A DNA stretch of 64,000 bases, taken from Cordylochernes scorpioides (lineage: Eukaryota; Arthropoda; Arachnida; Pseudoscorpiones; Chernetidae). Both the position numbers and the translations under genes were made by a program. This document shows positions 2,692-60,600 of the stretch, in pieces. Each line of letters begins with the position of its first letter. Positions within the stretch are counted from its first letter, which is position 1. The notes under the pieces are model-generated. The model did no database searches, was not told where the DNA came from, and was given only the letters and a program-made list of their open reading frames with translations. Location: the NCBI GenBank assembly GCA_030710605.1, contig CP092863.1, forward strand, positions 105,386,099 to 105,450,098, given 5' to 3'.

Positions 2692-4147
2692 CCCAATTCC
2701 AGAGGAACTAAGAAGGAAGCTGACTTTGATAAACCAGGATCTTCCATCGCTAGAGCACATTCAGATCCCAAGATGCGTGGTACCAGGTAATTTTATGAAG
2801 GTAGAATTTCATGGATTTTGTGATGCATCACAGAAGGCATATGCTGCATCTCTGTATCTAAAGGTGATCCTCTCAAACACAAGCGCTAAGACATTTCTCT
2901 TAGTGGCAAAAACAAGAGTCGCACCTATGAAGGTGGTTTCACTTCCAAAGTTAGAATTATGTTCTGCTCTACTTTTGGCAAGATTAGTGAAAACTGTATA
3001 TGATAACCTTCCTCTTACCATCAATGAAATTTATTTATGGTCTGATTCTACTATAGCCTTATGCTGGATCAATTCCGAGCCGTGCCGATGGAAGACATTT
3101 GTGGCAAATCGAGTTGCTGAGATACACCGGCTTGTCTCCGGGGTTTGGTGCCATGTTGATGGAAGGCAGAATCCAGCAGACTGTGCATCACGTGGAATAT
3201 TTCCATCCGACTTAGTAGAACATCCACTATGGTGGAATGGGCCACCATGGCCAATTGAACCTGCCCTTGAAATTAAGAAATTCATTAATAGCTCCAAGGG
3301 AGAATTTAAAGAAGAAGAAAAAATCAAGACGTATTTTGGTACAATTGAGTGTGAAATTCCATCCATTGTGATAAACTGCTCATCATTAACCAATCTGAAA
3401 TGTATCATAGCTTGGTGCTTAAGATTTGTCAACAACAGTCGAATGCCTTTACATTCAAGGAACAGGGAGCCCTTAACATTAAGAGAGTTGAATGATGCCC
3501 TGCTGACAGTTGTGAAGTGTGTTCAATCTATTGAATTTTCCAAAGAAAAGCATTGCCTGTTAAGCAACAAGCCAATCCCGAATAAGAGTAGAATATACAA
3601 TCTATGTCCCTTTTTGGATTCAAGGGGAATCATTAGAGTTGGCGGACGATTAAAAAATGTAAATGTTCATGGTGATCGGATTAATCAAGTTTTACTTCCA
3701 AGATCACATCATCTTACCACTCTTATTGTAAACAATGTTCATGTCCATAATCTTCACTCATCAACTCAAGCTACGCTTTCAGCAATAAGAAATATATTCT
3801 GGATACCTTCTGGAAGAAATGTTGTACGGAAAATTTTAAGAACATGCATGAAATGTGCTAGATTTCGTAAAGAAGCTCCTTTTCAATTAATGAGAAATCT
3901 ACCTTTTGCAAGGATCAACAGATCAAGGCCGTTTTTGGTAACTGGAATAGATTTTGCAGGACCTTTTCTGATTAAACGGAACATGGGACGTACAACTTCA
4001 ACCATGAATGCTTACGTTGCCTTGTTCATATGTTTCAGCACTCGGGCCATTCATCTAGAATTAATCAGTAGTCTGACCACAGATGCTCTCATATCCACAA
4101 TAAGAAGGTTCATTGCTCGAAGAGGTAAACCAGCAACAATTTTATAG
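2678..4147 (+). CDS. BEL/Pao pol: RNase H, integrase zinc finger and first part of core
   Basis: It opens in the RT-RNase H connection. RNase H blocks are FHGFCDASQKAYAASLY, the KLELCSALLLARLV segment, LWSDSTIALCWI and ADCASRG, with acidic active-site residues present. The H2C2 integrase zinc finger is HVHNLHSSTQATLSAIRNI followed by CMKCARF near 3735-3870. The integrase core begins with VTGIDFAGPF (first catalytic D). The frame stops at 4147 directly before the second catalytic Asp, which lies in the next frame. RNase H degrades the RNA template and integrase inserts the cDNA. Confidence 0.92.
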   Translation: MEWDDPIPEELRRKLTLINQDLPSLEHIQIPRCVVPGNFMKVEFHGFCDASQKAYAASLYLKVILSNTSAKTFLLVAKTRVAPMKVVSLPKLELCSALLLARLVKTVYDNLPLTINEIYLWSDSTIALCWINSEPCRWKTFVANRVAEIHRLVSGVWCHVDGRQNPADCASRGIFPSDLVEHPLWWNGPPWPIEPALEIKKFINSSKGEFKEEEKIKTYFGTIECEIPSIVINCSSLTNLKCIIAWCLRFVNNSRMPLHSRNREPLTLRELNDALLTVVKCVQSIEFSKEKHCLLSNKPIPNKSRIYNLCPFLDSRGIIRVGGRLKNVNVHGDRINQVLLPRSHHLTTLIVNNVHVHNLHSSTQATLSAIRNIFWIPSGRNVVRKILRTCMKCARFRKEAPFQLMRNLPFARINRSRPFLVTGIDFAGPFLIKRNMGRTTSTMNAYVALFICFSTRAIHLELISSLTTDALISTIRRFIARRGKPATIL

Positions 4148-4817
4148 TGACAACGCCACTAATTTTGTTGGTGCGCATAAGATTATTGGGAAACTATGTC
4201 ACAATGCCAGTAAGGTTCTTACGAATTCAGAGGGAATTCAGTGGAAATTTATTCCACCAGCAGCTCCACATTTTGGTGGACTGTGGGAAGCCGGAGTTAA
4301 GTCCATGAAATATCATCTTAGAAGAACAATGGGCAGTGCTTTGCTAAATTTTGAAGAACTAACAACATTGTTAGCACAAATTGAAGCTTGCCTGAATTCA
4401 CGACCTCTTTGTCCTCTTTCTGAGGACCCTGAAGATCTACAGGCATTGACTCCTGGTCACTTCTTAATAGGTGGTTCTTTAACAGCGCTTCCCGATGAAG
4501 ATTACATCATAGCAATGAGTTTGCCAAATAGTTGGCAATTAATTCAAAAATCAATGAATCATTTTTGGACAAGATGGTCCCAAGAATATGTGTCACAACT
4601 TCAACAAAGATCCAAATGGTGTAAGCCCCAACCCAACATTAAGGAAGGATCCCTGGTGTTGATAAAGAATGAACAACAACCTCCACTAGCATGGAAGATT
4701 GGAAGAATTTCAAAGGTGTTTCCAGGAGATGACGCTAGAATCAGAGTGGTAGAAGTCAAGACTGCTAATGGGACTTACAGAAGACCTATTGTAAAATTAT
4801 GTTTGTTACCTATATAA
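4137..4817 (+). CDS. BEL/Pao integrase core C-terminal part and DUF5641-like tail
   Basis: FYSDNATNFVGAH carries the second catalytic Asp of the DDE integrase, and PHFGGLWEAGVKSMKYHLRR carries the catalytic Glu. NSRPLCPLSEDPEDLQALTPGHFL is the conserved block after the core. The C-terminal 90 residues (W..RSKW...LVLIKNEQQPPLAWKIGRI...DARIRVVEVKTANGTYRRP) match the DUF5641 domain that ends BEL/Pao Pol. The end at LCLLPI just before the polypurine tract looks natural. The true frame joins the preceding one near 4138-4143. Confidence 0.9.
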   Translation, partial: QFYSDNATNFVGAHKIIGKLCHNASKVLTNSEGIQWKFIPPAAPHFGGLWEAGVKSMKYHLRRTMGSALLNFEELTTLLAQIEACLNSRPLCPLSEDPEDLQALTPGHFLIGGSLTALPDEDYIIAMSLPNSWQLIQKSMNHFWTRWSQEYVSQLQQRSKWCKPQPNIKEGSLVLIKNEQQPPLAWKIGRISKVFPGDDARIRVVEVKTANGTYRRPIVKLCLLPI

Positions 4818-29500: not shown

Positions 29501-29935
29501 ACATAAGCCCCCCTGTGCCCGAATCTCCAAAGACATGGAGTTTTATGACCTCTGCAGGATCTCGTATCCCTATTGTCTCTAATTCCCATAAGAATGTCAC
29601 TCTCTGTTGGGTTGAAAGTAAGGCGATAACCATTTGATAACTTGTCTCTGCTTTCACTTTGGAACTGTCTGGACAGGGTTCTTCTTTAGCTGCGTTCACT
29701 TTGAGACAGTCTGGACAGGGTTCTTCTTTATCTACTTTCATTTTGGAACTGTCTGGACAGGGTTCTTCTTTAGCTGCGTTCACTTTGGAACTGTCTGAAC
29801 AAGGTTCTTTATCTACTTTCACTTTGGAACTATTATGAGATCTGTTATCTGACCTCCAATTTAAATTTTCCTGACTATGTGAGGTTTCTCTGCACATCAT
29901 CTCAAAATGAGGTCCCTGGCAACGCTTGCATCTTA
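29499..29935 (-). pseudogene. BEL/Pao gag C-terminus with zinc knuckle and Cys-Pro-Asp repeats
   Basis: On the minus strand RCKRCQGPHFEMMC near 29890-29930 is a CCHC-like knuckle. It is followed by five repeats of about 48 bp encoding K.EEPCPDSSKV variants, then LWELETIGIRDP, which resembles the start of the BEL pol peptidase region, then LHVFGDS of RNase H. The repeats correspond to the DNA tandem array at 29650-29830. Confidence 0.65.
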
Positions 29936-29939
29936 CAAA

Positions 29940-30866
29940 AGATCGAATGATTGGACTTTCACCAATTTAGAGAATCCACAAAGGATAGAATAATTGGACT
30001 TTCACCAATTTAGAGAATCCACAAGGGTTAGAATGATTGGACTTTCACCAATTTAGAGAATCCACGAAGGATAGAATGATTGGACTTTCACCAATTTAGA
30101 GAATCCACAAAGAATGGAATGATTGGACTTTCACCAATTTAGAGAATCCACAAAGGATAGAATGATTGGACTTTCACCAATTTAAATAATCCAGAAAGGA
30201 TAAAATAATTGGACTTTCACAAATTTAGAGAATCTTCAAAGGATAGAATGATTGGACTTTCACCAATTTAGAGAATCCACAAAAGATAGAATAATTGGAC
30301 TTTCACCAATTTAGAGAATCCACAAAGGATAGAATAATTGGACTTTCACCAATTTAGAGAATCCACAAAGGATAGAATGATTGGAATTTCACCAATTTCG
30401 AGAATCGACAAAGGATAGAATAATTGGACTTTCACCAATTTAGAGAATCCACAAAGGATAGAATGATTGGACTTTCACCAATTTCGAGAATCCACAAAGG
30501 ATAGAATGATTGGACTTTCACCAATTTAGAGAATCCACAAAGGATAGAATAATTGGACTTTCACCAATTTAGAGAATCCACAAAGGATAGAATAATTGGA
30601 CTTTCACCAATTTAGAGAATCCACAAAAGATAGAATGATTGGACTTTCACCAATTTAGAGAATACACAAAGGATAGAATAATTGGACTTTCACCAATTTA
30701 TAGAATCCACAAAGGATAGAATAATTGGACTTTCACCAATTTAGAGAATCCACAAAGGATAGAATATTGGACTTTCACCAATTTAGAGAATCCACAAAGG
30801 ATAGAATGATTGGACTTTCACCAATTTCGAGAATCCACTAAGGATGGAATGATTGGACTTTCACCT
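29940..30866. repeat. 43-bp minisatellite inside BEL/Pao gag
   Basis: About 21-22 copies of a 43-bp unit (GAATGATTGGACTTTCACCA, ATTTAGAGAATCCACAAAGG, ATA), with point variants (TAGAGAA/TCGAGAA, AATGA/AATAA). It separates the gag start from the gag zinc knuckle. On the minus strand the gag frame reads into the first unit and stops. Confidence 0.95.
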
Positions 30867-31194: not shown

Positions 31195-32362
31195 TGTTGA
31201 AAAAGAAAAAAAATGAAGTGGTTCACCAGCCGTGTTCGCGCAAGTCGCGGAAATGTAAAATAGACCAAATTGATATAAAATATAACTTTTATTTTTAAAA
31301 TAAAAGGATTTAAAAGCGCGAATGTTTCTTTTATACGAATGTTTCTTTTAAATCCTTTTATTTTATATGTATAGATGGCGCGTTATTGCTTTGTGTTAAT
31401 TTATTCCTAATGGCCTTCTCTTTATAGTTTGCTGAAGAGCATTGCTCGAAGCAAATATTTGAATGTAATTCTATTGTCCTATAAGCTTATGTCCATAGTT
31501 TACTTGAAAACCATTTCTAAGATTCCATCCTTCAGTGTAGCATATAAAAGCAGAATGATCCAATACAGTTTCAGAGCTCTGAGAAGCGGTCTGGTGGATT
31601 AAATTGGCGAAACCGCTGGGAGGGTTCACCACTGATGAGCCAAGCCCTCCGAATATATTTTTTCATCGCAGTAAGGACAGTAGAAGTTCGTTTTATGTAT
31701 AAAAGAAACATTCGCGCTTTTAAATCCTTTTATTTTATATGTATAGATGGCGCGTTATTGCTTTGTGTTAACTTTTATTTTGCCTCTCTGCAAAATCTTG
31801 ATTTTAACAGGTAACTTTAACTTCTCAAATTTTATCTTCTCTAGCTTTAACTTTGACTTCTCTAAATTTATCTTCTTTATCTTTAACTTCTCTAAGTTCT
31901 TTAACTCTATCTTTAACCTCTTTGAGTTCTTTAACTTTATATTTAACTTCTCTTGAGTTATTTAACTTCCCTGAGTTCTTTAACTTCATCTTTAACTTCC
32001 CTGAGTTCTCTAACTTCATCTTCAACTTCTTTGAGTTCTTTAACTTTATCTTTAACTTCTTTGAGTTCATTAAATTTATCTTTAACTTCTTTGAGTTCTT
32101 TAACTTTATCTTTAACTTCTTTGATTTCTTTAACTTTATCTTTAACTTCTTTGAGTTCTTTAAATTTATCTTTAACCTCTTTAACTTCTCTGAGTTCTTT
32201 AACTTTATCTTTAACTTCTCTGAGTTCTTTAACTCTATCTTTTTTTACTTTAACTCTTCTTTAACTTTACCTTCTTCTATTCTTACTTTGATCCACCTTC
32301 CGCCACACACCCCATTCCGATCTAATACCTTCTCCTCGCCTCTACGACTATGCCCTGTCCTC
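31195..32362 (-). repeat. 5' LTR of the minus-strand BEL/Pao, truncated by satellite
   Basis: Matches 27058-28080, including the minisatellite (31800-32260) and the CCACCTTCCGCCA ... TGCCCTGTCCTCT end. It then jumps at about 32362 into the 56-bp satellite, so the LTR's own start is lost. A hairpin element is inserted at 31298-31769. Confidence 0.75.
31298..31769 (+). mobile_element. Hairpin element, family A copy 3, with 13-bp target duplication
   Basis: TAACTTTTATTTT precedes the insertion (about 31284-31296) and follows it (about 31769-31781); the uninterrupted LTR at 27.15 kb has it once. Short arms (TTTAAAAGCGCGAATGTTTC and complement) enclose a centre with GCATATAAAAGC near 31530. The cassette at 31604-31642 is TTGGC-GAAAC ... 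CTGATGA-GCCAA, a paired change relative to CTGGC/GCCAG in the other copies. ATGTATAGATGGCGCG occurs at both sides. Confidence 0.75.
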
Positions 32363-34255
32363 TGGACCTTGGCATAGGCCACAAGGAAACCTATTGGCGA
32401 CGCCAGGGATGCATAATCTGGACCTTGGCATAGGCCGCAAGGAAACCTATTGGCGACGCCAGGGCTACAAAATCTGGACCTTGGCAAAGGCCGCAAGGAA
32501 ACCTATTGGCGACGCCAGGGCTGCAAAATCTGGACCTTGGCATAGGCAGCAAGGAAACCTTTTGGCGACGCCAGGGCTGCAAAATCTGGACTTTGGTATA
32601 GGCTGCAAGGAAACCTATTGGCGACGCCAGGGCTGCAAAATCTGGACCTTGGAATAGGCAGCAAGGAGACCTATTGGCGACGCCAGGGCTGCAAAATCTG
32701 GGCCTCAACATAGGCAGCAAAGGAATCTATTGGCGACGCCAGGGTTACAAAATCTGGACCATGGCATAGGCCGCAAGGAAACCTATTGGCGACGCCAGGG
32801 CTGCAAAATCTGGACCTTGGCATAGGCAGCAAGGAAACCTCTTGGCGACGCCAGGGCTGCAAAATCTGGACTTTGGTATAAGCTGCAAGGAAACCTATTG
32901 GCGACGCCAGGGCTGCAAAATCTGGACCTTGGCATAGGCAGCAAGGAGACCTATTGGCGACGCCAGGGCTACAAAATCTGGACCTTGACATAGGGGCAAG
33001 GAAACCTATTGGCGACGCCAGGGCTGCAAAATCTGGACCTTGGCATAGGCCGCAAGGAAACCTATTGGCGACGCCAGGGCTGCAAAATCTGGACCTTGGC
33101 AGAGGCAGCAAGGAACTCTATTGGCGACGCCAGGGCTGCAAAATCTGGACCTTGGCATAGGCAGCAAGGAAACCTATTGGCGACGCCAGGGCTGCAAAAT
33201 CTGGGCCTCAACATAGGCAGCAAGGAACTCTATTGGCGACGCCAGAACTGCAAAATCTGGGCCTTAAAATAGGCAGCAAGGAACTCTATTGGCGACGGCA
33301 GGGCTGCAAAATCTGGGCCTTAACATAGGCAGCAAGGAACCCTATTGGCGACGACAGGGCTGCAAAATCTGGACCTTAACATAGGCAGCAAGGAACTCTA
33401 TTGGCGACGCCAGGGCTGCAAAATCTGTGCCTTAAAATAGGCAGCAAGGAAACCTATTGGCGACGCCAGGGCTGCAAAATCTGGACCTTGGCATAGGCAG
33501 CAAGGAACCCTATTGGCGACGCCAGGGCTGCAAAATCTGGACCTCAACATAGGCAGCAAGGAAACCTATTGCCGACGTCAGGGCTGCAAAATCTGGACCT
33601 TAACATAGGCAGCAAGGAAACCTATTGGCGACGCCAGGGCTGCAAAATCTGGGCCTCAACATAGGCAGCAAAAGAATCTATTGGCGGCGCCAGGGCTGCA
33701 AAATCTGGGCCTTGGCATAGGCAGCAGGGAACCCTATTGGCGACGCCAGGGCTGCAAAATCTGGACCTTGGCATAGGGGCAAGGAAACCTATTGGCGACG
33801 CCTGGGCTGCAAATCTGGTACTTGGTATAGGCTGCAAGGAAACATATTGGCGGCGCCAAGGCTGCAAAATCTGGTACTTGGTATAGGCAGCAAGGAAACC
33901 TATTGGCGTCGACAGGGCTGCAAAATCTGGACCTTGGCATAGGCCGCAAGGAAACCTATTGGCGACACCAGGGCTGCCAAATCTGGTACTTGGTATAGGC
34001 TGCAAGGAACCCTATTGGCGGCGCAAAGGCTGCAAAATCTGGACCTTGGCATAGGCCGCAATGAAACCTATTGGCGACGCCAGGGCTGCAAAATCTGGAC
34101 CTTGGCATAGGCCGCAAGGAAACCTATTGGCGACGCCAGGGCTGCAAAATCCGGACCTTGGCATAGGCAGCAAGGAAACCTATTGGCGACGCCAGGGCTG
34201 CAAAATCTGGACCTTGGCATAGGCAGCAAGGAAACCTATTGGCGGCGCCAGCCAT
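32362..34255. repeat. 56-bp satellite array, about 34 copies
   Basis: Unit: GGACCTTGGCATAGGC, NGCAAGGAAACCTATTGGCG, ACGCCAGGGCTGCAAAATCT. Variants affect CCTTGGC/CCTCAAC/CCTTAAC and AAACC/AACTC. Because 56 is not a multiple of 3, all six frames read through for long distances; the resulting frames (such as 32671-33111 minus) are artefacts. Left junction is in the BEL LTR, right junction is GGCGGCGCCAGCC. Confidence 0.97.
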
Positions 34256-44959: not shown

Positions 44960-45745
44960 AATTCTTTCCTTCCGCCTGCTAACTTCAGTTTCAACGCCAA
45001 GGATTGGCCAAGCTGGAAACAGCGATTTTCTCGATACAGACTTCTCTCCAACTTGAACGCCAAGGAACAAGAATATCAGATCACAGCATTGATATATCTT
45101 ATGGGAGAGAGAGGGATGAAGAAATCCACTCTGCGTTCAATCTCTCAGCAGATATGCAAAGAACCTCGACAAAGTCATTGAAGCGTTCGACAACCACTTT
45201 ATTGGCAAACGCAACGTGGTGTATGAGCGGGCTTTGTTCGGATTAAGGAGTCAACGACCGGAAGAAACCATTGAGGAATTTGTAACAGTCTTGCACAGAA
45301 TATCTGAGCACTGCGAATACGCTAATCTGCGCGAGGAGCTTATTCGTGATCGTATAGTGCTTAGAGTAAAAGATAGGAAGTTGTCGGAGAAACTGATGCT
45401 AAACGAAAACCTGACCTTGTCCAAGGCAGTCGAGATCGCCCGTCAGTGGGAAGCTGTGATGCGTGAACAACAGGATCTTAACCCTTCTACATCGCAGGTC
45501 GACACAACGCGGAAAGTGGCCAAGCAGAAGCCTGAAGCATCAGGTCATGGCAAGGTCAATGGCAGATCAACGTCTAGACAAACAGACAGTGCCAAGGAAA
45601 CAGACGAAGGAAAAAAATTTCCAACTTGCTTTAACTGTGGGACTACCAAACATCATTATCGTTACAGAGATAAGTGCCCGCTAAGGACAAAGTCTGTGGA
45701 AAGTGCGGGAAAAAGGGCCATTACACTAATCTCTGTCGAATAAAA
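44960..45745 (+). pseudogene. Gypsy gag, frameshifted
   Basis: FNAKDWPSWKQRFSRYR (about 44990-45040) opens a capsid-like domain. The frame shifts near 45110-45160 and continues as FDNHFIGKRNVVYERALFGL and RSQRPEETIEEFVTVLHRIS. The first zinc knuckle starts CFNCGTTKHH near 45626. After another shift near 45678 a second knuckle reads CGKCGKKGHYTNLC. The stretch 45216-45743 is open. Confidence 0.8.
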
Positions 45746-45893
45746 ACATTGAGGTGAACGCCATATCCTCGGAGGAAACCCAGCGCGGGAGAAGGCCTCA
45801 TTTGTATATGCTGTCCGCGAGCCTTCGCTGGGAAGCAGAAAGAGCAGGTGGAAGTCAACAGTAAGAGTCAACGGCACTGCAATCCACTTCAAG

Positions 45894-46568
45894 TTGGATC
45901 CTGGCTCGGATGGGACGCTGATACCATTTTCCCTGTACAAGCGGTATTTCAGCAACGTCCAACTGACGCCTACCGACGGTCAACTGATGGCGGCCGCGAA
46001 CCAAAGATTGGATAATGCTGGGACCTTCGAGGCGAAGCTCCGAGCTAACACACGTGAAGTGACGGAAACCTTGTACGTGGTCCACCATTTGGAGCAACCT
46101 CTGCTGGGTGTCGGAGCCTGTGAAGACCTCCAACTCGTCAAACGAATTGATTTTGTCATCAACGGAAAAAGGAATGTCAATACTGAACGAGAGTTCCCTA
46201 AGCTATTTGAAGGACTGGGGCTTCTTGAACAGCCTTATCACATCAAGTTGAAGGAAGATGCCAAGCCCTTCTCCATACCAGTCCCAAGACGAGTACCTCT
46301 TCCGCTCATGCCGAAGTTAAAAGAGCAACTGGATGCCATGATGGATCAAGAAGTCATCGAACCAGTTGATGAGCCAACGGAGTGGTGCGCACCAATCGTC
46401 CTAGCTGGAAAGCCAAACGGGAAAATCAGGATCTGTGTAGACTTGTCCCGACTTAACCTGAGTGTGGAACGTGAGCTTCACCCACTTCCTGTCCTTGAAC
46501 ATGAACTAGCTCAACTCAACGGGGCCAAAATCTTTTCCAGGCTGGATGCTAACAGCGGATTTTGGTAG
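45894..46568 (+). pseudogene. Gypsy protease and N-terminal reverse transcriptase
   Basis: KLDPGSDGTLIPFSLYKRYF is the retropepsin site, but the triad reads D-P-G instead of D-T/S-G, probably inactivating. RT begins IKLKEDAKPFSIPVPRRVP, then GKIRICVDLSRLNLSVERE and FSRLDANSGFW. A TAG at 46566-46568 interrupts motif A where Gln is usual (a C-to-T change); the same frame continues beyond it. Confidence 0.88.
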
Positions 46569-47387
46569 ATTAAACTCTCTGAAGAAAGCCAAACGCTGAC
46601 GACTTTCATTACGCCCTTTGGCAGATATAAATTCAAAAGGCTTCCCTTTGGGATCTCTAGCGCTCCAGAACACTTCCAGAAACGTATGTCTGCTATCCTA
46701 CGCGGAGTCAATGGGGTAATCTGTCACATGGATGACATCCTTATCTTCGCAAAGAGAAAAGAAGAGCATGACGAGACACTACGCGAAGTTTTGAGACGCC
46801 TAAAGAACTCAGGAATTACGCTTAACAAAGAAAAGTGCCTGTTCGGTGTAAGCAACGTCACATTCCTGGGACATTACATCGACGAACACGGTATCAAGGC
46901 GGACGAAAATAAATTCAAAGCCCTCGCCGAGATGAAACCGTCAACTGACGTCAACGGGGTGCAACGTTTTATGGGCATGGTCAATTTCCTAGGCCGCTTT
47001 GTTCCAGACCTAGCGGAAATCACAAAGCCACTAAACGACCTAAGAAAGAAAGATGTGAGTTTCATCTGGGGATCACCACAGAAAAAAGCATTCGAGAAAG
47101 TCAAAGATGTTCTGGCCAGTGACCGAGTTCTGGCAAGCTTTGACATCTCTAAGAAGACCATGGTCTCAGCCGATGCATCATCGTATGGCCTGGGAGCTGT
47201 CCTCAAACAAGAGCATGAAGCGAACGAGTGGCGCCCAGTGGCCTATGCATCAAGGACGCTGACGAAGACGGAACAGGGATACGCTCAAATAGAAAAGGAA
47301 GCCCTTGCAATCACATGGGCGTGTGAGCGCTTCAAGGACTTTGTGGTTGGAAAACATTCCTCATCGAAACAGATCACAAACCTTTAG
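46569..47387 (+). pseudogene. Gypsy reverse transcriptase C-terminus and RNase H
   Basis: Continues in frame after the [23 protein letters not shown], then [20 protein letters not shown] (HMDD in place of YxDD; the two Asp are kept), [20 protein letters not shown] thumb. RNase [40 protein letters not shown]. The frame breaks at about 47352; the third RNase H block ([17 protein letters not shown]) and HTPGKDLITADALSR follow in another frame to a TAA at 47523-47525. Confidence 0.88.
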
Positions 47388-47525
47388 TCCCCATCTTCAC
47401 CACTAAAGATCTGAACGATCTAACGCCAAGGCTTCAACGGTACCGTATGAGGATGCTTCAGTTCTCGTTTCATATCTTTCATACACCGGGGAAGGACCTA
47501 ATCACCGCTGATGCCCTTTCAAGAT

Positions 47526-48610
47526 AACCACTTCCAGGTCATCTTCCCGAAGATGAAGAGCTCCAGGAAGAAGTTGAACATTTTGTGCGTAGCATCGTCC
47601 TGCATCAATCCACGACAGGCGATCGACTTGCCAAAATAGCCCTCAACCAGAAGCTGGAGCCTACCCTTCAAAATGTGGCATTTTATTCCAAAAACGGTTG
47701 GCCCGCCAAATGTCAGCTCTCTCCCTTTGAACGCTCGTTCTACGATGTTCGCGACGAGATAGGGGAAGAGAACGGCTTACTAATGAGAGGACTGCGAGTG
47801 ATCATCCCCTCTAACATGCGAAAAGATGTTTTGAACCGCATCCACGCAGGTCATCAAGGAATAACAAAATGTCGAGCAAGAGCAAAGGATCATGTTTGGT
47901 GGCCAGGAATAGGTCAAGAAAACCAGGATATGGTAAAAACCTATGATAAATGCATCGAGAATCAACCTCTAAAGCACGAACCACTCATCCCCAACGACTT
48001 TCCGGAACGACCGTGGCAAAAAGTCGGGATGGATCTCTTCCATTGCGAAGGAAGTGAGTATTTAGTCGTCGTAGACTACTTTTCTCGATTTATCGAGGTC
48101 GTATGACTTACTAAACTTTCCTCGGAAGCTGTGGTAGATCACAGCAAAGCCATCTTTGCTCGTCATGGCATCCCTGACATTATAATCAGTGATAACGGAC
48201 CACAATTTCGCCCATCAACAACTTCAGCTTTTACGAAGTTTGCCTCTGAAATTGGGTTTCGACACATCACTTCCAGCCCAAAGCATCCACAATCAAATGG
48301 TCAAGCAGAGGCTGCTGTCAAAATTGTGAAAAACCTGATGAAAAAGAATAAAGATCCGGTCCTAGCACTCATGGAGTATCGGGCAACACCCCTGGCAAAC
48401 GGACTCTCCCCTGCGGAACTTCTATTTGAACGGAAAATTCGCACTATGGTTCCCTGCACTTCATCATCACTAACCCCTAAAACAGTATATCAATCCAAAC
48501 TCAGGGGGGAAGAGGAGCAGCGGAAGATGGCGCAGAAAAAGGCTTTTGAGAGATGCCAAGCGGCCACGAAAAAGGCGGAACTAATTGCAGGAGAGAAAGT
48601 TTGGGTGTGT
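47526..48610 (+). pseudogene. Gypsy integrase
   Basis: H2C2 finger: IHAGHQGITKCRARAKDHVW then CIEN (one Cys of the CxxC pair reads as part of KCIENQ). Core: KVGMDLFHCEGSEYLVVVDY (D), IISDNGPQFRPSTTSAF (D), SSPKHPQSNGQAEAAVKIVK (E), all present. A TGA at 48104-48106 interrupts between the first and second catalytic Asp; the same frame continues. Confidence 0.9.
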
Positions 48611-48902
48611 GAAGGATCTACGAGCGTCGGGAAGTGTCCTCGAGAAGGCTTCAGCGCCCCGCTCATACATCGTGGAAACTCCTGTAGGGACCTACAGGCG
48701 GAACTATCTTCTTCTGGCTTCTTCCCAACAACAGGTCGACCCCAGTGAGACATCTCCTGACAGTCAACTCCTCGCTGAAACGGAGGAAACTCCGGGAAAT
48801 GAATTGCCTGCAGAGGAGCAACAACAGCTGCCAGCAATAGCTCCAGAGATGAAGCAGCTCTCTCCCTCACCTGGGAAAGTATCGCGGTATGGGAGAAGAT
48901 GA
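48585..48902 (+). pseudogene. Integrase C-terminal tail in shifted frame
   Basis: After a shift near 48608 the tail reads APRSYIVETPVGTYRRNYLL, the usual end of Gypsy integrase proteins. A Gln/Pro/Glu-rich end (EEQQQLPAIAPEMKQLSPSP) follows and stops just before the polypurine tract. Confidence 0.75.
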
Positions 48903-48944: not shown

Positions 48945-49192
48945 TATTGAGGGTTCAGGCGAGAATCCTCACGCCACTCGCGCCTGGCGGCGCCGGTGTG
49001 GCGGCGGGTACCGGCCGAGACTGGAACCAGGCAGTTTGGTTTCGGATTTGGCTGCTAGCGGAAGTAACTCCGCGTCTGGCTGTGTGTGGTGTTCTCCTTA
49101 TGTTCCGGCACTGGTTGTAAATAAAACCGGTACCAAGGGAGCTCCGACGACTCAGAGTGGATTATTGACAAAACAACGGGCACAACACAACA
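48945..49192 (+). repeat. 3' LTR of the 4.6-kb Gypsy
   Basis: 248 bp, 10 differences from the 5' LTR by eye (for example GGGAACC/GGGTACC, AACCCGG/AACCAGG). Preceded by TTTTGGGGGAGA and followed by GTAAC. Confidence 0.95.
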
Positions 49193-49343
49193 GTAACCAA
49201 ATTTTTTCACGAATTCCCAATGATCCAAGATTTAATGGGTTTCCTTTTTGGTATTTGATTGAGCTAAACGAAGCGGAGTAAAGTTAGGTTGAATTAAAAT
49301 AAACCTGAAATAATTTTGATTGTCTGCCCCTTTTATAAAGCTA

Positions 49344-49502
49344 CTAGCCGAATGAGCCGGGCAATGCCCGGGTTTTACCCGATTAAATGCTTTTTATTCA
49401 AATACTATTCGTTACAATTATAAATTGGCGCCGTGGATGTCATTCTTGTGAAACGTCCCGCTCCAAACTTTGTGTCTGAGAAGCGATATTTTTATAAAGA
49501 GA
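49344..49502 (-). mobile_element. Helitron-like 3' end fragment
   Basis: On the minus strand it ends GGGCATTGCCCGGCTCATTC then GGCTAG, with interior AAAGTTTGGAGCGGGACG as in the 28.1 kb copy. The 5' part is missing; it joins directly to the next element. Confidence 0.65.
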
Positions 49503-50048
49503 CTAGCGGATGTACCCGGCTTCGCCCGGGTTTTACCCGAGTAAAGGTTTGTCTAACGAACATTTGTGTTAAAACAATTCTCTATAAATTTATAAAAAAA
49601 AAATAATAGATATATTTTGGTAATTTGAAACTCGTAAATTTGAATATCTAAATAAAGTGAACATTTTTTCCCGGTCCCTGTGTGCCGTGTCATCCTGAAT
49701 TTTGTCTTTCCTAATTTTCTACATTACAAAATCATCGTTTTATCTAGTGAACATTTTCCCGGTCCCTTGAAAAATACTCGATAAGTTGAATAAAATCAAT
49801 ATTAATTGGTTCCCTCGGTATATAGATTAAAAAAAACTTATCATCGTCGCAATGGTGGCGCTGCTTGAGAGTTAAATCTACAAATCTGAAAATAACTCTA
49901 AGGATATTCAAGATATTCAAGAAATTATTTTTCAGACACCTTCCCAGTACTACACTAAATAACTTCCCAAAGTTTCATGGCGTTCCAATGAGTGGTTTGG
50001 TCAGGCATAAAGGACAGACACACACACACATACATTCATTTATATATA
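49503..50048 (-). mobile_element. Non-autonomous Helitron-like element
   Basis: On the minus strand it starts TATATATAAATGAATGTATG and ends GGTAAAACCCGGGCGAAGCC, then GGGTACATCCGCTAG. It shares its body (GCAGCGCCACCATTG, CAAATTACCAAAATATATC) with the plus copy at 55389-56036. Confidence 0.7.
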
Positions 50049-50675
50049 TGTGGGATCGGTGCGAATTACCTTTTGAAGTTGGCTGAGTTGATTGTTTGTG
50101 GTGGGCGTAGTCGTGTTGGCTGAGTTGGTAAGGTATTCACAAGGGAAAATAACGAGGACACAGAGTTGAGTTGAAAAAGACTAGCAATCTAGGGAAAAAA
50201 GGAATTGAAGCTATTGATCTGAGTTGGCTCTTAACTATGGCTGTTCACATTATTGATGGTGGGACTTATCTGTTCGTTGAGAGGGTGATGGCTGGCTTCT
50301 AACCGGATTCCTTGGTCGGTCCAGGTGCTAACTCGATCCTGTCCAGGTCCCAACTACTAAACTCGGTTCGCGATTTAACAAGAAAACTATTCAGGGTTCT
50401 GATTGGCTGGTGGTTTAGACGTGTAAGCCTTCTATTGGTTCCTAGCTAATTCTCCTATTCTCTCATTGGCCTTTGCTGTCTCTTTGTTCTGGACTTGTTC
50501 CGACCTGACCCAGGAAATACTAGGTTCTTGAACCCAGTTTTATGAGTTCCTGGATAATAAAACCTGCTAATGATCGCTTCCTCTTTGATGGCCTTTCTCT
50601 CCCAGATTTATTAAGCCTTGTCTTTATTAAAATCTTTTAAAACATACATTGCATACATATTGGGGCGGGTTTGCA
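50049..50675 (-). repeat. Truncated solo LTR of the 37.5-kb Gypsy family
   Basis: Reverse complement of the 616-bp LTR (GTGGGATCGGTGCGAATTAC ... GGGGCGGGTTTGCA). It lacks the first 14 bp of the LTR and differs at many positions, so it is older than the pair at 37.5/42.9 kb. The PLE starts exactly where it ends. Confidence 0.85.
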
Positions 50676-50726
50676 TAATCGTATTTAAATCCAAAATAGG
50701 CCTTATTTTTAAAATATAAATGAATT

Positions 50727-52265
50727 ATGGATTGCTCTATATTCAGAATGATTGCAACCAGTTTTGGTTCTGATGCCCTTCGTCTCTCAAGAAAATTGGA
50801 AAGATTCCATCTATCTTTAAGCAGTTGGAAGGTACATCTGCACTTCAACCATAGCTGTCTCTCTAATGGAATTATTCCCCCTTCCTTGATTCTAAAAGAT
50901 CCTGTACGAACGACATTTTCGCGCAAAAATCTGTATCAAACGGGAAGAAAACTTTTGAATGCTCGCATCAAAAACTGTCACTATAACATAAACAAATCAA
51001 AATCGAATATTGAAATAATTATTCCTAATTTGAAACCATTGATCAGCGATGATTATTTTGAAAAGTTGAACACATTTATAGCCAGTAATTGCCAAAACAA
51101 AAGAGAATCTATACAACAAAGACATTCCAAAAAAATTAACAACTGGGCGAACAAATCTCAACGTCTCACACACCATAACACTGTGATTAATCTCTCAACC
51201 CAATCATTCACCCCAGAAGCAACAACTCTATTATCAAGAGGTTTGAACTTTGTGCCATCTCAAAAGATAAACACTCCTAAAACATTAGTCGCAATAGAGA
51301 ATTCAATTAAAAATTTCCCAGATGAACAAAAGTCGAAAATTAGAACAGAAATAGCACCAATTATAAAGAAATTAGAAAAACATAACAAGACTAATTTAAG
51401 TAAAGAAGAAAAGAATGCCATAAAACAATTGAAAGAAAACAAACAAATAATCATAGCACCTTCAGATAAAGGTAGAAACACGGTAATCATGGATGCAATA
51501 GAATATAATAACAAAATAGAACAGTTACTTCAAGATAAAGATATATACGAACCTTTAACTAAGAATCCCCTAACCAATCTTACAAAAGATTTCAATAGAC
51601 AATTTAACAAAATCAAGCGCAAATACAAGCTAGATAACAAAACCTTCGACAGTTTAAAAGCCACGGCTCAAAATCTTCCAAATTTACACGGTCTACCAAA
51701 AATGCATAAGCCCAATACCCCATTACGTCCCATAGTGTCATATTCTGGCTCGCCCCTGTACCCCATCACCAAATTTCTGTCATCAATTATATCACCATTC
51801 CAGAAGAAACTTCTCCACACAGTCCCCAATCCAATAGTAGCTATTGAAGCAATCAAAAATACTCCAGTTTCACCAGACAGCCGGATCATATCTTTTGATA
51901 TAGAATCCCTTTATACTTCCATCCCACATGACGAAGCAATTCTTGCATTACAAGAATTCATAAATTCCCACCCAGACTTACCCCTCCCCATCCCAAAGGA
52001 GGCTCTCATAGAACTGATCAAACTCTGCCTATCATTTAATTACTTCTTCTATAAGAACAGATATTTCAAACAGGTCAAGGGACTTCCAATGGGAAATCCT
52101 ATATCATTAGCCAATGTCTTCATGGATAAGATTGATAAGTTAATCGTTGAATCCACACAACTACAAATTTTAATGTGGAAACGCTACATTGATGATGTAT
52201 TATGCATCACAGAGGTGGATGTTTCCATAATTATGAATTTTATTAATAGTCTTAGACCTTTCTGA
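50727..52265 (+). CDS. PLE reverse transcriptase
   Basis: 512 codons from ATG, MDCSIFRMIATSFGSDALRL. Basic/helical N-terminal region to about residue 250, then APSDKGRNTVIMD (residue about 250), LPNLHGLPKMHKPNTPLRPI (motif 1-2), ISFDIESLYTSIPHDEA (motif A, catalytic Asp), KQVKGLPMGNPISLANVFMD (motif B), WKRYIDDVLCI (YIDD). PLE RTs prime from DNA ends and are related to telomerase. The stop at 52263-52265 is a frameshift; the thumb follows in another frame. Confidence 0.92.
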   Translation: MDCSIFRMIATSFGSDALRLSRKLERFHLSLSSWKVHLHFNHSCLSNGIIPPSLILKDPVRTTFSRKNLYQTGRKLLNARIKNCHYNINKSKSNIEIIIPNLKPLISDDYFEKLNTFIASNCQNKRESIQQRHSKKINNWANKSQRLTHHNTVINLSTQSFTPEATTLLSRGLNFVPSQKINTPKTLVAIENSIKNFPDEQKSKIRTEIAPIIKKLEKHNKTNLSKEEKNAIKQLKENKQIIIAPSDKGRNTVIMDAIEYNNKIEQLLQDKDIYEPLTKNPLTNLTKDFNRQFNKIKRKYKLDNKTFDSLKATAQNLPNLHGLPKMHKPNTPLRPIVSYSGSPLYPITKFLSSIISPFQKKLLHTVPNPIVAIEAIKNTPVSPDSRIISFDIESLYTSIPHDEAILALQEFINSHPDLPLPIPKEALIELIKLCLSFNYFFYKNRYFKQVKGLPMGNPISLANVFMDKIDKLIVESTQLQILMWKRYIDDVLCITEVDVSIIMNFINSLRPF

Positions 52266-53077
52266 AATTCACTTATGAATTAGAAGAAAATGGGTCTCTA
52301 CCATTTTTGGACTTACAACTGACCAGAAATCAAAATAAAATTGAAACGAAAATTTATCGAAAACCAACCCACACAGGAAGTTACCTGAACTTCAATTCTT
52401 TTGGTCCTATCTGTCATAAGGTTGCGGTGGTCAAAACACTATCCAAGAGGTTGACTACACATTTTACGGATAAAACTGAGGAAAAAATTGAAAGAGCTAG
52501 ATTATTTCAAGAACTTCAAAGCAATAATTATCCTTAAGAATTCATCAAAAAGCAATTATATGCACCAAAAATTCCATCCACGAACAATAGACAGATCTCA
52601 ACCCCGAACATGTTTTGCTCCCTACCTTACAGCTATGGCTGTGAAAGAATAGCCAGAAGTTTAAAAAAACACAATATTACAACCAGATATCAACCAAACC
52701 AGAATTTAAGAAGCATCTTCCGTCACCCTGATACAAAACAAATCTACAAGCCAGAAGATAGAGCGAATGTGGTTTATAAAATACCATGCAAATCCTGCCA
52801 GGCAATATACATAGGAGAAACCAGCAAACCTTTATCTGAAAGAATTAACCAACACAAATCCGCACTAAAGCGCCATAACCCGACATCTCTACTGGTAGAT
52901 CATGCATTCAACAATAGTCACACTCCAGACTTCGATCACACATCTATAATACATCAAAACATCAAAGAAAAACATTGCCGTTTATTTTTAGAAAGCTGGA
53001 GCTCATTAGAAAATAAAAATAGTATCAATAGAAAGATTGACTTGCCAGATGTATATACTCAGTTTAGAACCTCTTAG
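52262..53077 (+). pseudogene. PLE thumb and GIY-YIG endonuclease
   Basis: FTYELEENGSLPFLDLQLTR and KIYRKPTHTGSYLNFNSF are the post-palm PLE block. A TAA at 52535-52537 interrupts at NNYP, then EFIKKQLYAPK continues in frame. The GIY-YIG domain starts VVYKIPCKSCQAIYIGETSK (Y..YIG), then PLSERINQHKSALKRH with the conserved Arg, and FLESWSSLENKNSINRK near the end. This endonuclease nicks target DNA for integration. Confidence 0.9.
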
Positions 53078-53424
53078 ATGATTATGCTATTTACATGGTT
53101 ATTTTATTCCATTTTTAATCGGATATCTATTACTATTATTTGTATATTTATTTCACAGTTATTTCAATTTTTATGATATTTTATTTGTTTAATTAATTCG
53201 ATATCTCTTAATTTTCATTAGTCATTTACATATATCACTTTTTTCTTTAATTAATTTGATATCTCTTAATTTTCAATAGTCATTTACATATATCACTTTT
53301 TTATTTTGATTATATTTACTCTGTTTAGAATGTGTATATTAGATGGTTTATCGCCCAATAAGCTTAGAAGACGTCTAGTGGCTCACCTGGGGCGCGCGAC
53401 CTGCTGCGTGCTTAACTGCAAAAC

Positions 53425-53465
53425 ACCTCGTAAAAGATGGAAGATTGATCCATCGAAATATCGGT
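53425..53465 (+). ncRNA. Degenerate hammerhead-like ribozyme motif of the PLE
   Basis: ACC-TCGTAAAA-GATGG-AAGATTGAT-CCATC-GAAATATC-GGT. The 5-bp GATGG/CCATC stem, GAAA and a self-complementary ATAT before C match stem II, the GAAA box and a minimal stem III with C17. ACC/GGT can form stem I. The CTGANGA box is degenerate, so activity is doubtful. PLEs are known to carry hammerhead motifs. Confidence 0.5.
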
Positions 53466-53510
53466 AAATAATAATCGTATTTAAATCCAAAATAGGCCTT
53501 ATTTTTAAAA

Positions 53511-54003
53511 AAAAAATATATATATAGATAATCTGGCTTTGTGTCGAATGAATGTTTTTCTGTTAGAATTTTGTTTCTGCATACTAAAAATGAACTGGCT
53601 TCACCCGTTGTCTCTGCTTTTTGGAATTTTTCCGGATATAATTTTGTATCTGATAATCAAATATGATACAGCATAATTGTCATAGTCATTTTCTGACTAA
53701 AAAAACCCAACTATTTTTGCCCAGAACCTGTCAATTTTAATTTTTCTTGGCTGAAAATGCGACAAATATCTCTTCCATATTTTTTTTTCTATGTCCTGTT
53801 AAAACACGTTTTACATGTACATTAGGTCAGCTGATATTACCTCCCATCTTCTTTGCTAGAGGCGCTGCTTGCGAGCGAAAGAACAAATTTGCAATTCGGG
53901 ATAGAGACCTGAAATATTCAATATACGTTTTTCCAGATTCTACTATACATACTGCTAAAAGTTCAGTCATATTAGTTACGTATTTTACGTATATTACGTA
54001 AAA
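53511..54003 (-). mobile_element. Helitron-like fragment lacking its 3' end
   Basis: Body text (AATGAATGTTTTTCTGTTAG, AACCTGTCAATTTTA, CACGTTTTACATGTACATTA, GAGGCGCTGCTTGCGAGCG) matches the interior of the 28.1-29.0 kb copy. The CTAG terminus is absent. Confidence 0.6.
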
Positions 54004-54004
54004 G

Positions 54005-54275
54005 CATTCCATTCACAAAAGCAAACGATGACAGAATTGATGACTCTGATACTTGTATATTTTAATAATATAAATTAGTTTTAAAAATTGTAAAAAATAA
54101 AAAAATGCATCGGCCGGGAATCGAACCCGGGCCGCCCGCATGGCAGGCGAGCATTCTACCACTGAACCACCGATGGTTATAAGAAATTGCCATATTTGGG
54201 TATTTATTCCATTTACAAAAGCCATCGCTGACAGAATTGGTTGATTGTTGATTATGACTCTGATACTTTTATATT
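54005..54275. repeat. Direct repeat flanking the tRNA gene
   Basis: 'ATTCCATTCACAAAAGC', 'GACAGAATTG' and 'ATGACTCTGATACTT' occur at 54007-54057 and again at 54206-54266, with small indels. This suggests tandem duplication of a tRNA-bearing unit, one tRNA having been lost. Confidence 0.65.
54106..54176 (-). tRNA. tRNA-Gly (GCC anticodon)
   Basis: On the minus strand the 71-nt sequence folds as a tRNA: ATCGGTGGTTCAGTGGTAGA (A box), anticodon loop CTGCCAT with GCC, B box CCGGGTTCGATTCCCGG and discriminator A. A T7 terminator follows directly. The first acceptor pair is C1-C72 instead of G1-C72, and loop position 38 is T, so the gene may be weakened. A repeat of about 55 bp flanks it on both sides (54005-54062 and 54205-54275). 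Confidence 0.85.
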
Positions 54276-54279
54276 TGAA

Positions 54280-54745
54280 TCATATTTAACTATAACACAC
54301 TTCAGGGGAAACTATAGTTAAAGATGAATAGAATAAGAGGGGAACGTTATTTATATTTTTGTATATTAATATTGTGACCTATCTGCTGATAAACGGCGTC
54401 TACAAATTACAACTGGAGTAGCGTAGACACCCTCCTTCAACTACCATGCCTTCTCTTGTGGATTCAAGGAACATAATACATATTAAGTCGATACATCAAC
54501 TACATATCCCACAGTTATCTACAAGATTGTGTAAGAAAGAGAGAGTTGGTGGAACTTCATTCATACCGTCCAGATCTCCATGCAAGAAGCTTGACCTTAT
54601 ATAATTGAAGACATTCAGTGTCGAGTTCGTCAACTTATTTAATTTATTTAAAACGAAAAAAGGGGTGAACTTTCTTCTTTATCTATTTCATTATATAAAG
54701 ATATTTAATGATATGCATTATGTTACGATGTACTAGAGCGCCATC
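54280..54745. other. Unassigned intergenic sequence
   Basis: Mixed composition, no gene or known repeat. GCGCCATCTGTTATC at 54739 is the left junction of the palindrome that follows. Confidence 0.45.
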
Positions 54746-56560: not shown

Positions 56561-56564
56561 TGAA

Positions 56565-57064
56565 AACAACAGCTTACTTACTATACCTCGACTAATTGGC
56601 AATTTGTCACATGTTTTCTACTCCACAGGCCGCTCCAAGCACACACTGTGGCAATGAACCAAGCAAGCAGTTAGACACCAGAACTGTAACACAAGTGAGT
56701 ATCCCCGTGTTCAGGGAGGAAGAGAAAACAACACCTCACTTACTACACCTCGACTAATTGGCCATTTGTCACATGTTTTCTACTCCACAGGCCGCACCAA
56801 GCATACACTGTGGCAATGAACCAAGCAAGCAGTAAGACACCAGAACTGTAACACAAGTTAGTATCCCCGTGTCCAGAGAGGAAGAGAAATCAACACCTCA
56901 CTTATATATACTACACCTCGACTAATTGGCCATTTGTCACATGTTTTCTACTCCACAGGCCGCACCAAGCACACACTGTGGCAATGAACCAAGCAAGCAG
57001 TAAGACACCAGAACTGTAACACAAGTGAGTATCCCCGTGTCCAGAGAGGAAGAGAAATCAACAC

Positions 57065-57096
<32 letters not shown>

Positions 57097-57245
57097 CTAC
57101 ACCTCAACTAATTGGCCATTTGACACATGTTTTCTACTCCACAGGCCGCACCAAGCAGACACTGCGGCAATGAACCAAGCAAGCAGTAAGACACCAGAAC
57201 TGTAACCCAATTGGGTATCCCCGTGTCCAGGGAGGAGGAGAAAAC
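56565..57245 (+). repeat. Four tandem exon-like units, 162-186 bp
   Basis: Each unit contains CACATGTTTTCTACTCCACAG, a 3' splice-site-like end, then about 65 bp (GCCGCACCAAGCACACACTG, GCAATGAACCAAGCAAGCAG), then ACACAAGTGAGTATCC, a 5' splice-site-like start. Units begin near 56570, 56732, 56900 and 57086; TA expansion lengthens the last spacing. The last copy has lost the GTGAGT (ACCCAATTGGGTATCC). The core encodes no conserved frame. Could be duplicated non-coding exons or a satellite with chance splice signals. Confidence 0.6.
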
Positions 57246-57369
57246 AACAGCAGTAGCTACCATCTACAAGTACCATCTTGGACTTGAGGTGGATAACACC
57301 AGCCATCACATCGACCTGCCCACTCTGTGGGAAAGAACTCTTGCAGTCTCCCATAGACGGAGTCCATCC

Positions 57370-58613: not shown

Positions 58614-59038
58614 ATGTATTTATGTTCCATAAGCTTAATTAGAACTAATTATAATCTTAACGATTTTTATTTATATTTTCAAGATTTTCCACGATTGCAT
58701 ACCAATACCAATGTGCTCAATAGAACCAGCAAATATCATAATAATATTCATGTATCAAGTAAATGATCATTAATTCTTTATAAAATATTTCAAAATCAAC
58801 ATCAGAAATCATTTTTATAATATATATATTTATTAAAAAACGAAATAAAAAAATAAAAGATAAAAAGATCAGGTGTTGAAATCAATATAAAAAAAAAATG
58901 GCATATCCTGACCAGGAGCACATGTGCTTTACAGAAGGCAGAGCGCCATCTGGTGGAACAGAAATCAACTAAACATTGATTTAGCCTGTTCCCTGATATT
59001 TGGCCAACCCAATTTCTTGATAAATCAAGAAAAGCCAT

Positions 59039-59079
59039 CCACGAACGCGTTTCGCGCTTTTTGGCGCTCGTCAGCGTGG
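59039..59079 (-). ncRNA. Hammerhead ribozyme, copy 1
   Basis: Read on the minus strand: CCACG (stem I), CTGACGA core box, GCGC-CAAAAA-GCGC (stem II and loop), GAAA, CGCGTT, CGTGG (stem I). All core positions of the hammerhead consensus are met (C3 U4 G5 A6 N7 G8 A9; G12 A13 A14). Stem III is A-C/G-U around GC, i.e. the self-complementary ACGCGT, so a dimeric fold is plausible; cleavage would follow U17. AGCC/GGCT extend stem I beyond an internal loop. Confidence 0.88.
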
Positions 59080-59389
59080 AGTAGGCTGAACCATTGAGAC
59101 CAAAAAAGATTTTTTGATCCCAATGGCTTCCTGAAAAACCAAGAAATGGGTATTTAAGGCCAAACCTGCGTAAATACGCTTAGCACATTAAAAAACGAAA
59201 TAAAAAAATAAAAGATAAAAAGATCAGGTGTTGAAATCAATATAAAAAATGGCATATCCTGACCAGGAGCACATGTGCTTTACAGAAGGCAGAGCGCCAT
59301 CTGGTGGAACAGAAATCAACTAAACATTGATTTAGCCTGTTCCCTGATATTTGGCCAACCCAATTTCTTGATAAATCAAGAAAAGCCAT

Positions 59390-59430
59390 CCACGAACGCG
59401 TTTCGCGCTTTTTGGCGCTCGTCAGCGTGG
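59390..59430 (-). ncRNA. Hammerhead ribozyme, copy 2
   Basis: Identical 41-nt core to copy 1, 351 bp downstream in the same orientation. Confidence 0.88.
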
Positions 59431-59740
59431 AGTAGGCTGAACCATTGAGACCAAAAAAGATTTTTTGATCCCAATGGCTTCCTGAAAAACCAAGAAATGG
59501 GTATTTAAGGCCAAACTTGCGTAAATACGCTTAGCACATTAAAAAACGAAATAAAAAAATAAAAGATAAAAAGATCAGGTGTTGAAATCAATATAAAAAA
59601 TGGCATATCCTGACCAGGAGCACATGTGCTTTACAGAAGGCAGAGCGCCATCTGGTGGAACAGAAATCAACTAAACATTGATTTAGCCTGTTCCCTGATA
59701 TTTGGCCAACCCAATTTCTTGATAAATCAAGAAAAGCCAT

Positions 59741-59781
59741 CCACGAACGCGTTTCGCGCTTTTTGGCGCTCGTCAGCGTGG
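59741..59781 (-). ncRNA. Hammerhead ribozyme, copy 3
   Basis: Identical 41-nt core, exactly 351 bp from copy 2. Confidence 0.88.
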
Positions 59782-60022
59782 AGTAGGCTGAACCATTGAG
59801 ACCAAAAAAGATTTTTTGATCCCAATGGCTTCCTGAAAAACCAAGAAATGGGTATTTAAGGCCAAACTTGCGTAAATACGCTTAGCACATTAAAAAACGA
59901 AATAAAAAAATAAAAGATAAAAAGATCAGGTGTTGAAATCAATATAAAAAAATGGTTTTTTGGTTTTTCAGGAAGCCATTGGGATCAAAAAATCTTTTTT
60001 GGTCTCAATGGTTCAGCCTACT

Positions 60023-60063
60023 CCACGCTGACGAGCGCCAAAAAGCGCGAAACGCGTTCGTGG
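60023..60063 (+). ncRNA. Hammerhead ribozyme, copy 4 (inverted unit)
   Basis: Identical core on the plus strand, after the head-to-head inversion near 59952. Copies 3 and 4 face each other and could pair as double-stranded RNA in a read-through transcript. Confidence 0.88.
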
Positions 60064-60373
60064 ATGGCTTTTCTTGATTTATCAAGAAATTGGGTTGGCC
60101 AAATATCAGGGAACAGGCTAAATCAATGTTTAGTTGATTTCTGTTCCACCAGATGGCGCTCTGCCTTCTGTAAAGCACATGTGCTCCTGGTCAGGATATG
60201 CCATTTTTTATATTGATTTCAACACCTGATCTTTTTATCTTTTATTTTTTTATTTCGTTTTTTAATGTGCTAAGCGTATTTACGCAAGTTTGGCCTTAAA
60301 TACCCATTTCTTGGTTTTCCAGGAAGCCATTGGGATCAAAAAATCTTTTTTGGTCTCAATGGTTCAGCCTACT

Positions 60374-60414
60374 CCACGCTGACGAGCGCCAAAAAGCGCG
60401 AAACGCGTTCGTGG
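60374..60414 (+). ncRNA. Hammerhead ribozyme, copy 5
   Basis: Identical core on the plus strand, 351 bp after copy 4. Its unit ends at about 60562 (GGATATGCCATTTTTT) before a TA tract. Confidence 0.88.
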
Positions 60415-60600
60415 ATGGCTTTTCTTGATTTATCAAGAAATTGGGTTGGCCAAATATCAGGGAACAGGCTAAATCAATGTTTAGTTGATTTCTGTTCCAC
60501 CAGATGGCGCTCTGCCTTCTGTAAAGCACATGTGCTCCTGGTCAGGATATGCCATTTTTTATATATATATTTATATAATATTATATTTAATATTTATATA

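Follow-up and report, generated by a model that had tools for sequence, protein, structure and literature searches.

A two-armed hammerhead retrozyme array in a pseudoscorpion, with a design that points to Penelope-type reverse transcription of a small RNA circle from two ends

The question raised by this locus is how a short unit without a long open frame, carrying a ribozyme, comes to stand in an animal genome as two arms laid back to back, and which machinery could have placed it there. The unit lies in Cordylochernes scorpioides, within a window that comprises the whole stretch of 64,000 nucleotides analysed here (contig CP092863.1 of assembly GCA_030710605.1, positions 105,386,099 to 105,450,098). 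At 58832-60564 of the window a retrozyme array of about 4.9 copies of a 351-bp unit is found, with five hammerheads. The initial annotation had described one tandem array; its coordinates and its 351-bp period were recovered, the leftmost unit being 355 bp long, but the simple tandem layout was rejected, the arms being opposed and the hammerheads divided between the strands, three on minus and two on plus. The left arm (58832-59951, sense on the minus strand) runs leftward for 3.2 units from an inner end at unit position 146 to an outer end at 208, where unit RNA positions are counted from the predicted cleavage site. The right arm (59956-60564, sense on the plus strand) runs rightward for 1.7 units from an inner end at 249 to an outer end at 155. 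The arms meet head to head at 59952-59955, an inner junction of 4 nt that belong to neither arm. It should be noted that a 14-bp target-site duplication, ATATATATATTTAT, borders the array on the left (58820-58833, its final 2 nt also fitting the unit) and on the right (60561-60574, its initial 4 nt also fitting the unit), so that the array looks like one insertion. A duplication of at least 14 bp was reached by 2 of 5,000 flank shuffles.

The unit itself has a GC content of 39%, below the 50% that bounds metazoan retrozymes, and a length within their range of about 150-450 bp. In line with the earlier claim that no protein is encoded, the longest stop-to-stop frame reaches 97 aa in four concatenated units, and the unit lacks an RT and GIY-YIG coding region. 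Among Pol III boxes, no B box was found in the unit, and the A box gave one match, in antisense only. Unit positions 88-101, CCACCAGATGGCGC, resemble a CTCF binding site, a putative assignment; if real, thousands of copies might affect chromatin. The earlier classification as a metazoan-type, recently active retrozyme stands with respect to unit size, hammerhead, GC content, duplications and identical core; the simple tandem layout that accompanied it does not.

The five hammerheads are located at 59024-59090, 59375-59441 and 59726-59792 on the minus strand and at 60012-60078 and 60363-60429 on the plus strand. Within the window, a strict type I descriptor gave exactly these five matches; 200 dinucleotide shuffles gave no match at all. 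The five identical 41-nt segments reported earlier, which satisfy all core positions, were found in the sequence, each with a stem I of 5 bp, a stem II of 4 bp and the AGCC/GGCT extension of stem I. In the covariance search that had been proposed, each of the five is matched by Rfam HH9 (RF02275) with a score of 38 bits (E 1.7e-7), which lies below the gathering score of that model, 52 bits, and for this reason a default Rfam run shows no hammerhead. In the fold, stem I is extended and interrupted, and the loop of stem II is CAAAAA. Three features go beyond the earlier description, namely the 14-bp duplications, U17 as the cleavage-site nucleotide in five of five hammerheads, and a stem III, ACGCGU, reduced to a single A-U pair with a palindromic CGCG loop, as in dimer-type hammerheads. 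U17 as cleavage nucleotide is usually weaker than C.

Folding energies agree with dimer-type cleavage, since a single hammerhead favors a competing fold (-20.0 kcal/mol, against -16.6 kcal/mol for the hammerhead form), and the double hammerhead folds at -40.5 kcal/mol. The 351-nt monomer that had been predicted corresponds to the distance between successive predicted cleavage sites. As a circle, this monomer folds at -112.6 kcal/mol (z -7.3), which none of 200 shuffles equaled, with an ordinary paired fraction of 63% (20 of 200 shuffles equally high); the pairing probability in this fold is 0.81-0.99 for the 5-bp stem I of the hammerhead and about 0.6 for stem II. The type I hammerheads of the units are predicted to be self-cutting. 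According to PMC7229834, the axolotl hammerhead HHR_Amex1 cleaves poorly alone and better as a dimer; with a weak, palindromic stem III here and dimer dependence there, failure of a monomer to cleave is an unsafe criterion against the ribozyme.

The distribution of the unit was followed in the 2.62-Gb assembly of 24 contigs with a 29-nt core pattern that has one free position. A genome-wide search had been suggested, and it returned 1,434 + 1,447 = 2,881 occurrences of the ribozyme core, with none for the reversed-pattern control and none in viral or prokaryote contigs. At least 18 HH9 matches were obtained among the 58 of 178,716 candidates that were scored, the best scored match reaching 41.8. 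The expectation of a conserved core with compensatory changes is borne out for the core, present in thousands of copies, and hardly for the stems: at one stem II position with 27 changed copies, 24 kept the old partner, 2 were compensated and 1 had U-U, a pattern that lends no support to selection on stem II and is expected of copies decaying after insertion. Sampling covered the window and the first 100 places in the list of 2,881; these 100 lie on contig C1, below 77 Mb. They form 39 clusters, of which 21 are single copies, 3 have one orientation and 15 are mixed. All 15 mixed clusters have the order minus then plus, with no step from plus to minus, and they make up 15 of the 18 clusters with at least two listed cores. 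The same order is seen in further pairs (C16, C1) and arrays (C3, C23).

The loci of these 39 clusters and the window (locus L070) were fetched, and the 40 loci contain 46 unit clusters, 28 of them minus-plus, one minus-plus-minus-plus (L063), 17 of single orientation and none plus-minus. Plus-to-minus neighbors occur at L063, where one two-armed element adjoins another, and at L069, where a 113-bp plus fragment lies about 200 bp ahead of the minus arm. Clean duplications at some of the 17 single-orientation clusters (13 bp in L061/L062, 8 bp in L066/L067) imply that one-ended insertion also occurs or that an arm was lost. In one of these 17, L031, a stretch of about 30 nt can be recognized by eye as part of a second arm. 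L059/L060, L061/L062 and L066/L067 are paired loci that share a single-arm insertion and have similar flanks, and were therefore probably duplicated within larger repeats. A single insertion at L051 (799-9206) has one arm of about 4.0 units and another of about 19.9, almost every unit being 352 bp long.

The outer ends of the two-armed clusters favor two positions of the unit. Two end classes were defined after inspection of the data, A at unit positions 200-210 and B at 144-163, with preferred ends at about 208 and about 155, 53 nt apart, both adjoining U6 runs; the array in the window ends at A on the left and at B on the right. In the 40 fetched loci, 50 of the 56 outer ends of 28 two-armed clusters fall in A or B. 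Both ends could be classed in 22 clusters, and 21 of these have one A and one B, one is BB (L033) and none is AA, for which the chance is 5.5e-6 at even odds. In the other 6 of 28 one end lies outside both classes: L040, L041 (at position 282), L047 (second cluster), L054 (both clusters, the first truncated at the border of the fetched sequence) and L058. Duplications of at least 11 bp, mostly 11-19 bp, flank 20 of 22 clusters, compared with 30% of 238 mismatched flank pairs. Many sit in TA-rich DNA, where mismatched flanks give up to 21 bp; several are other than simple TA runs, for example at L053, L064, L065 and L068. No poly(A) tail was seen at the outer ends. Around the two sites, stems are predicted at 131-137/167-173 and 116-122/207-213, which would put B inside the loop of a hairpin and A at the base of an outer stem. 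The motif TCAACACCTGA is retained in most copies, including older ones with variable neighbors, and is absent from L066, L067 and L039. This motif, or the predicted stems at the start sites, may perhaps be a candidate binding site for a reverse transcriptase.

The two-armed architecture points to two-ended reverse transcription, of the Penelope type, of a small RNA circle. Our main reading, to which a probability of roughly 0.68 is assigned, is that of a high-copy, animal-type retrozyme whose monomeric RNA circle would be copied into DNA by Penelope-type machinery working from the two ends of a single break. During the first stage, arm transcripts would be cut by hammerheads acting as pairs, and the 351-nt monomer would be circularized by a host RNA ligase. 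During the second stage, a Penelope-type RT/endonuclease would cut AT-rich DNA in a staggered manner that leaves 3' overhangs, and the two 3' ends would share one circle as template, priming at site A (about 208) in one case and at site B (about 155) in the other. Each reverse transcriptase would then circle the template for part of one lap to about 20 laps. Finally, the two cDNA ends would be joined at arbitrary positions, giving back-to-back arms with the RNA 3' ends outward. Cleavage, RNA circles and the enzyme of this cycle are what we infer from the sequence. Two-ended priming would account for the order of the arms and for the duplications, and equally for outer ends at preferred positions and inner junctions that are scattered. 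The presence of one A and one B per circle would explain why an element so rarely has two ends of one kind.

A precedent for several of these steps is provided by the purified Anolis Penelope protein, which cleaves DNA that is AT-rich and extends the two strands, beginning on the RNA at either of two neighboring internal sites, the interval between them being the tail (PMC11167929). Two results of that work count against the main reading: the start site did not differ between the strands, and hammerhead mutants had no effect on insertion. The same work also supplies an argument that the template might be a linear multimeric transcript of an array, with the hammerhead as a relic: unprocessed RNA was the main substrate of that protein in vitro (PMC11167929). 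The U17 nucleotide and the weak stem III of the present hammerhead would fit such a template. A linear multimer, however, would offer many A and B sites, so that frequent AA and BB elements would be expected, and none and one of 22 were seen. Differing ends suggest that A and B each occur once on the template, which would make it a monomer, and for a monomer to give arms of many units it has to be a circle. The scarcity of AA and BB elements tells against the linear multimer unless the protein complex itself imposes the asymmetry of the ends, as it may, instead of a monomeric template. Accordingly, the linear template is considered unlikely, though it is the strongest of the alternatives.

It may also be supposed that the two arms arise by LINE-type target-primed reverse transcription with twin priming and owe nothing to Penelope machinery. 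Twin priming inverts the 5' part of an insert and would likewise give opposed segments. The duplications, mostly 11-19 bp and at least 11 bp in 20 of 22 clusters, are within the range reported for Nematostella repeats, whose 15-bp duplications are likened to LINE mobilization in PMC4918200. This is opposed by the two preferred internal outer ends, one per arm, and by the fact that a poly(A) tail was not seen; the published match for two adjacent internal starts with a one-sided tail is Penelope (PMC11167929 and PMC3846280). A LINE origin is accordingly judged improbable.

The two arms of one insertion appear to derive from one RNA variant. Seven loci have a full unit per arm, and in 6 of them both arms share the commonest unit length (343, 350, 351 or 352 bp); the exception is L032 with 350/351. 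Of 24 loci, 21 have arms that diverge less from each other than the median across other loci, and 3 have arms that diverge more. Only in 9 of 24 loci does an arm find its closest match, alone or in a tie, in the opposite arm of its own locus, since young copies at other places hardly differ. An 8-bp deletion, present in 31 exact genomic copies at 10 places, is found in both arms at 3 of the 10 (C1, C3 and C23, with 6+6, 3+1 and 2+5 copies), and at the remaining 7 exact matches occur in one orientation only.

Arms of a single variant would also be produced if the second arm arose by snap-back self-priming of a single cDNA, resembling a model proposed for Penelope inverted repeats in PMC3846280. 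Self-priming predicts equal inner positions in the two arms, and the inner junctions are scattered: the positions of the two arms lie within 10 nt in 2 of 27 pairs, where 1.6 are expected by chance, and they also disagree in three pairs outside the 27 (the second cluster of L047, the first of L054 and the second of L063). Nor would self-priming explain a preferred start at both outer ends, and it is regarded as very improbable. Inner ends at the cleavage site were considered and rejected, since ends at unit position 1 were an artefact of a linear query and shifted with rotated queries; inner ends at 318-350 (9 of 54, with 5.1 expected) are not counted as a signal. Ordinary satellite DNA, amplified and inverted through DNA recombination, would give tandem, near-identical units, up to about 20 per arm as in L051, yet it is scarcely credible for dispersed loci with preferred ends and target-site duplications, in which random inversion would have yielded both orders and not the minus-then-plus order of all 15 mixed clusters among the first 100 listed places. 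Two-armed retrozymes can separate the models of Penelope inverted repeats, self-priming and two-ended priming.

With two-ended priming on a circle as the preferred reading, a bolder generalization may be offered, which is held tentatively and at slightly less than even odds. Two Penelope-type reverse transcriptases would insert animal retrozymes simultaneously on one monomeric circle, one at each 3' end of a staggered break; the rule of one A and one B would be the signature of a template with single start sites, the arrays would be fossils of circular RNA templates, and the Penelope tail would have the same cause.

Regarding the enzyme, the window holds a broken Penelope-like element at 50675-53517 on the plus strand, with RT (Pfam RVT_1) and GIY-YIG matches in different frames, between 47-bp direct repeats. 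The element attests the presence of the presumed class of helper without marking this copy as the one in use. No helper Penelope whose ends match was identified, the copy in the window shares no significant stretch with the unit, and at 49000-54300 no Rfam hammerhead matched to E 10. Coding regions of LTR retrotransposons lie at 81-4817 and 45216-48748, by eye BEL/Pao-like and Gypsy-like, and these retroelements together with the Penelope-like one are compatible with an animal host. The window further contains minisatellites at 29935-30865 (43-bp unit x 21.7) and 32361-34251 (56-bp unit x 33.8), a tRNA gene at 54106-54176 on the minus strand (Rfam 58.9 bits, anticodon GCC by eye), and at 56562-57249 a separate tandem array of 162-186-bp units in which the strict descriptor finds no hammerhead. 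In PMC7229834, Penelope-like elements are named as strong candidates for mobilizing animal retrozymes, and according to PMC7761336 no motif in retrozyme repeats indicates the helper. The two-armed design and the two preferred starts would be such a pointer, and they bring the helper question within reach of a test that needs a single purified protein and a 351-nt circle.

Compared with metazoan non-LTR retrozymes, as presented in PMC7229834, the present unit is alike in its type I hammerhead, its length within 150-450 bp, low GC content, duplications longer than 4 bp, high copy number and stable fold of the monomer. Those retrozymes are reported there as tandem copies, whereas here the two-armed arrangement is the common multi-copy form in the sampled places; the words "inverted", "head-to-head" and "opposite" are absent from the main text of that paper, and no description of two-armed retrozyme arrays was found in open PMC papers among the matches listed. 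The one-pair stem III and the palindromic tetraloop are shared with HHR_Amex1, the amphibian satellite hammerhead of the axolotl (PMC7229834), from which the array hammerhead differs in its cleavage nucleotide, U17. In invertebrates, helix III is stable in most hammerheads of type I (PMC7761336). The array hammerhead resembles Hammerhead_HH9 in the loop of stem II, the core and the overall layout and differs from it in its score against the cut-off.

Bdelloid Penelope elements, as described in PMC3846280, carry pLTRs at their borders, some direct and some inverted head to head. Several inserts have 8-10-bp duplications and others lack them, one inverted pLTR may bear a 31-bp tail, and the inverted junctions are often palindromic; no cross-mobilization between Penelope types was seen by those authors. 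The retrozyme is like such EN-containing Penelope-like elements in its head-to-head arms, one-arm tail, short duplications, AT-rich targets and two internal starts of reverse transcription (PMC3846280 and PMC11167929). It is unlike them in that the unit lacks a long open frame, the "tail" measures 53 nt against about 31, the arms range from 0.1 to about 20 units and the inner junctions are non-palindromic. The retrozyme behaves like a Penelope-like element in the design of its inserts, yet is not one.
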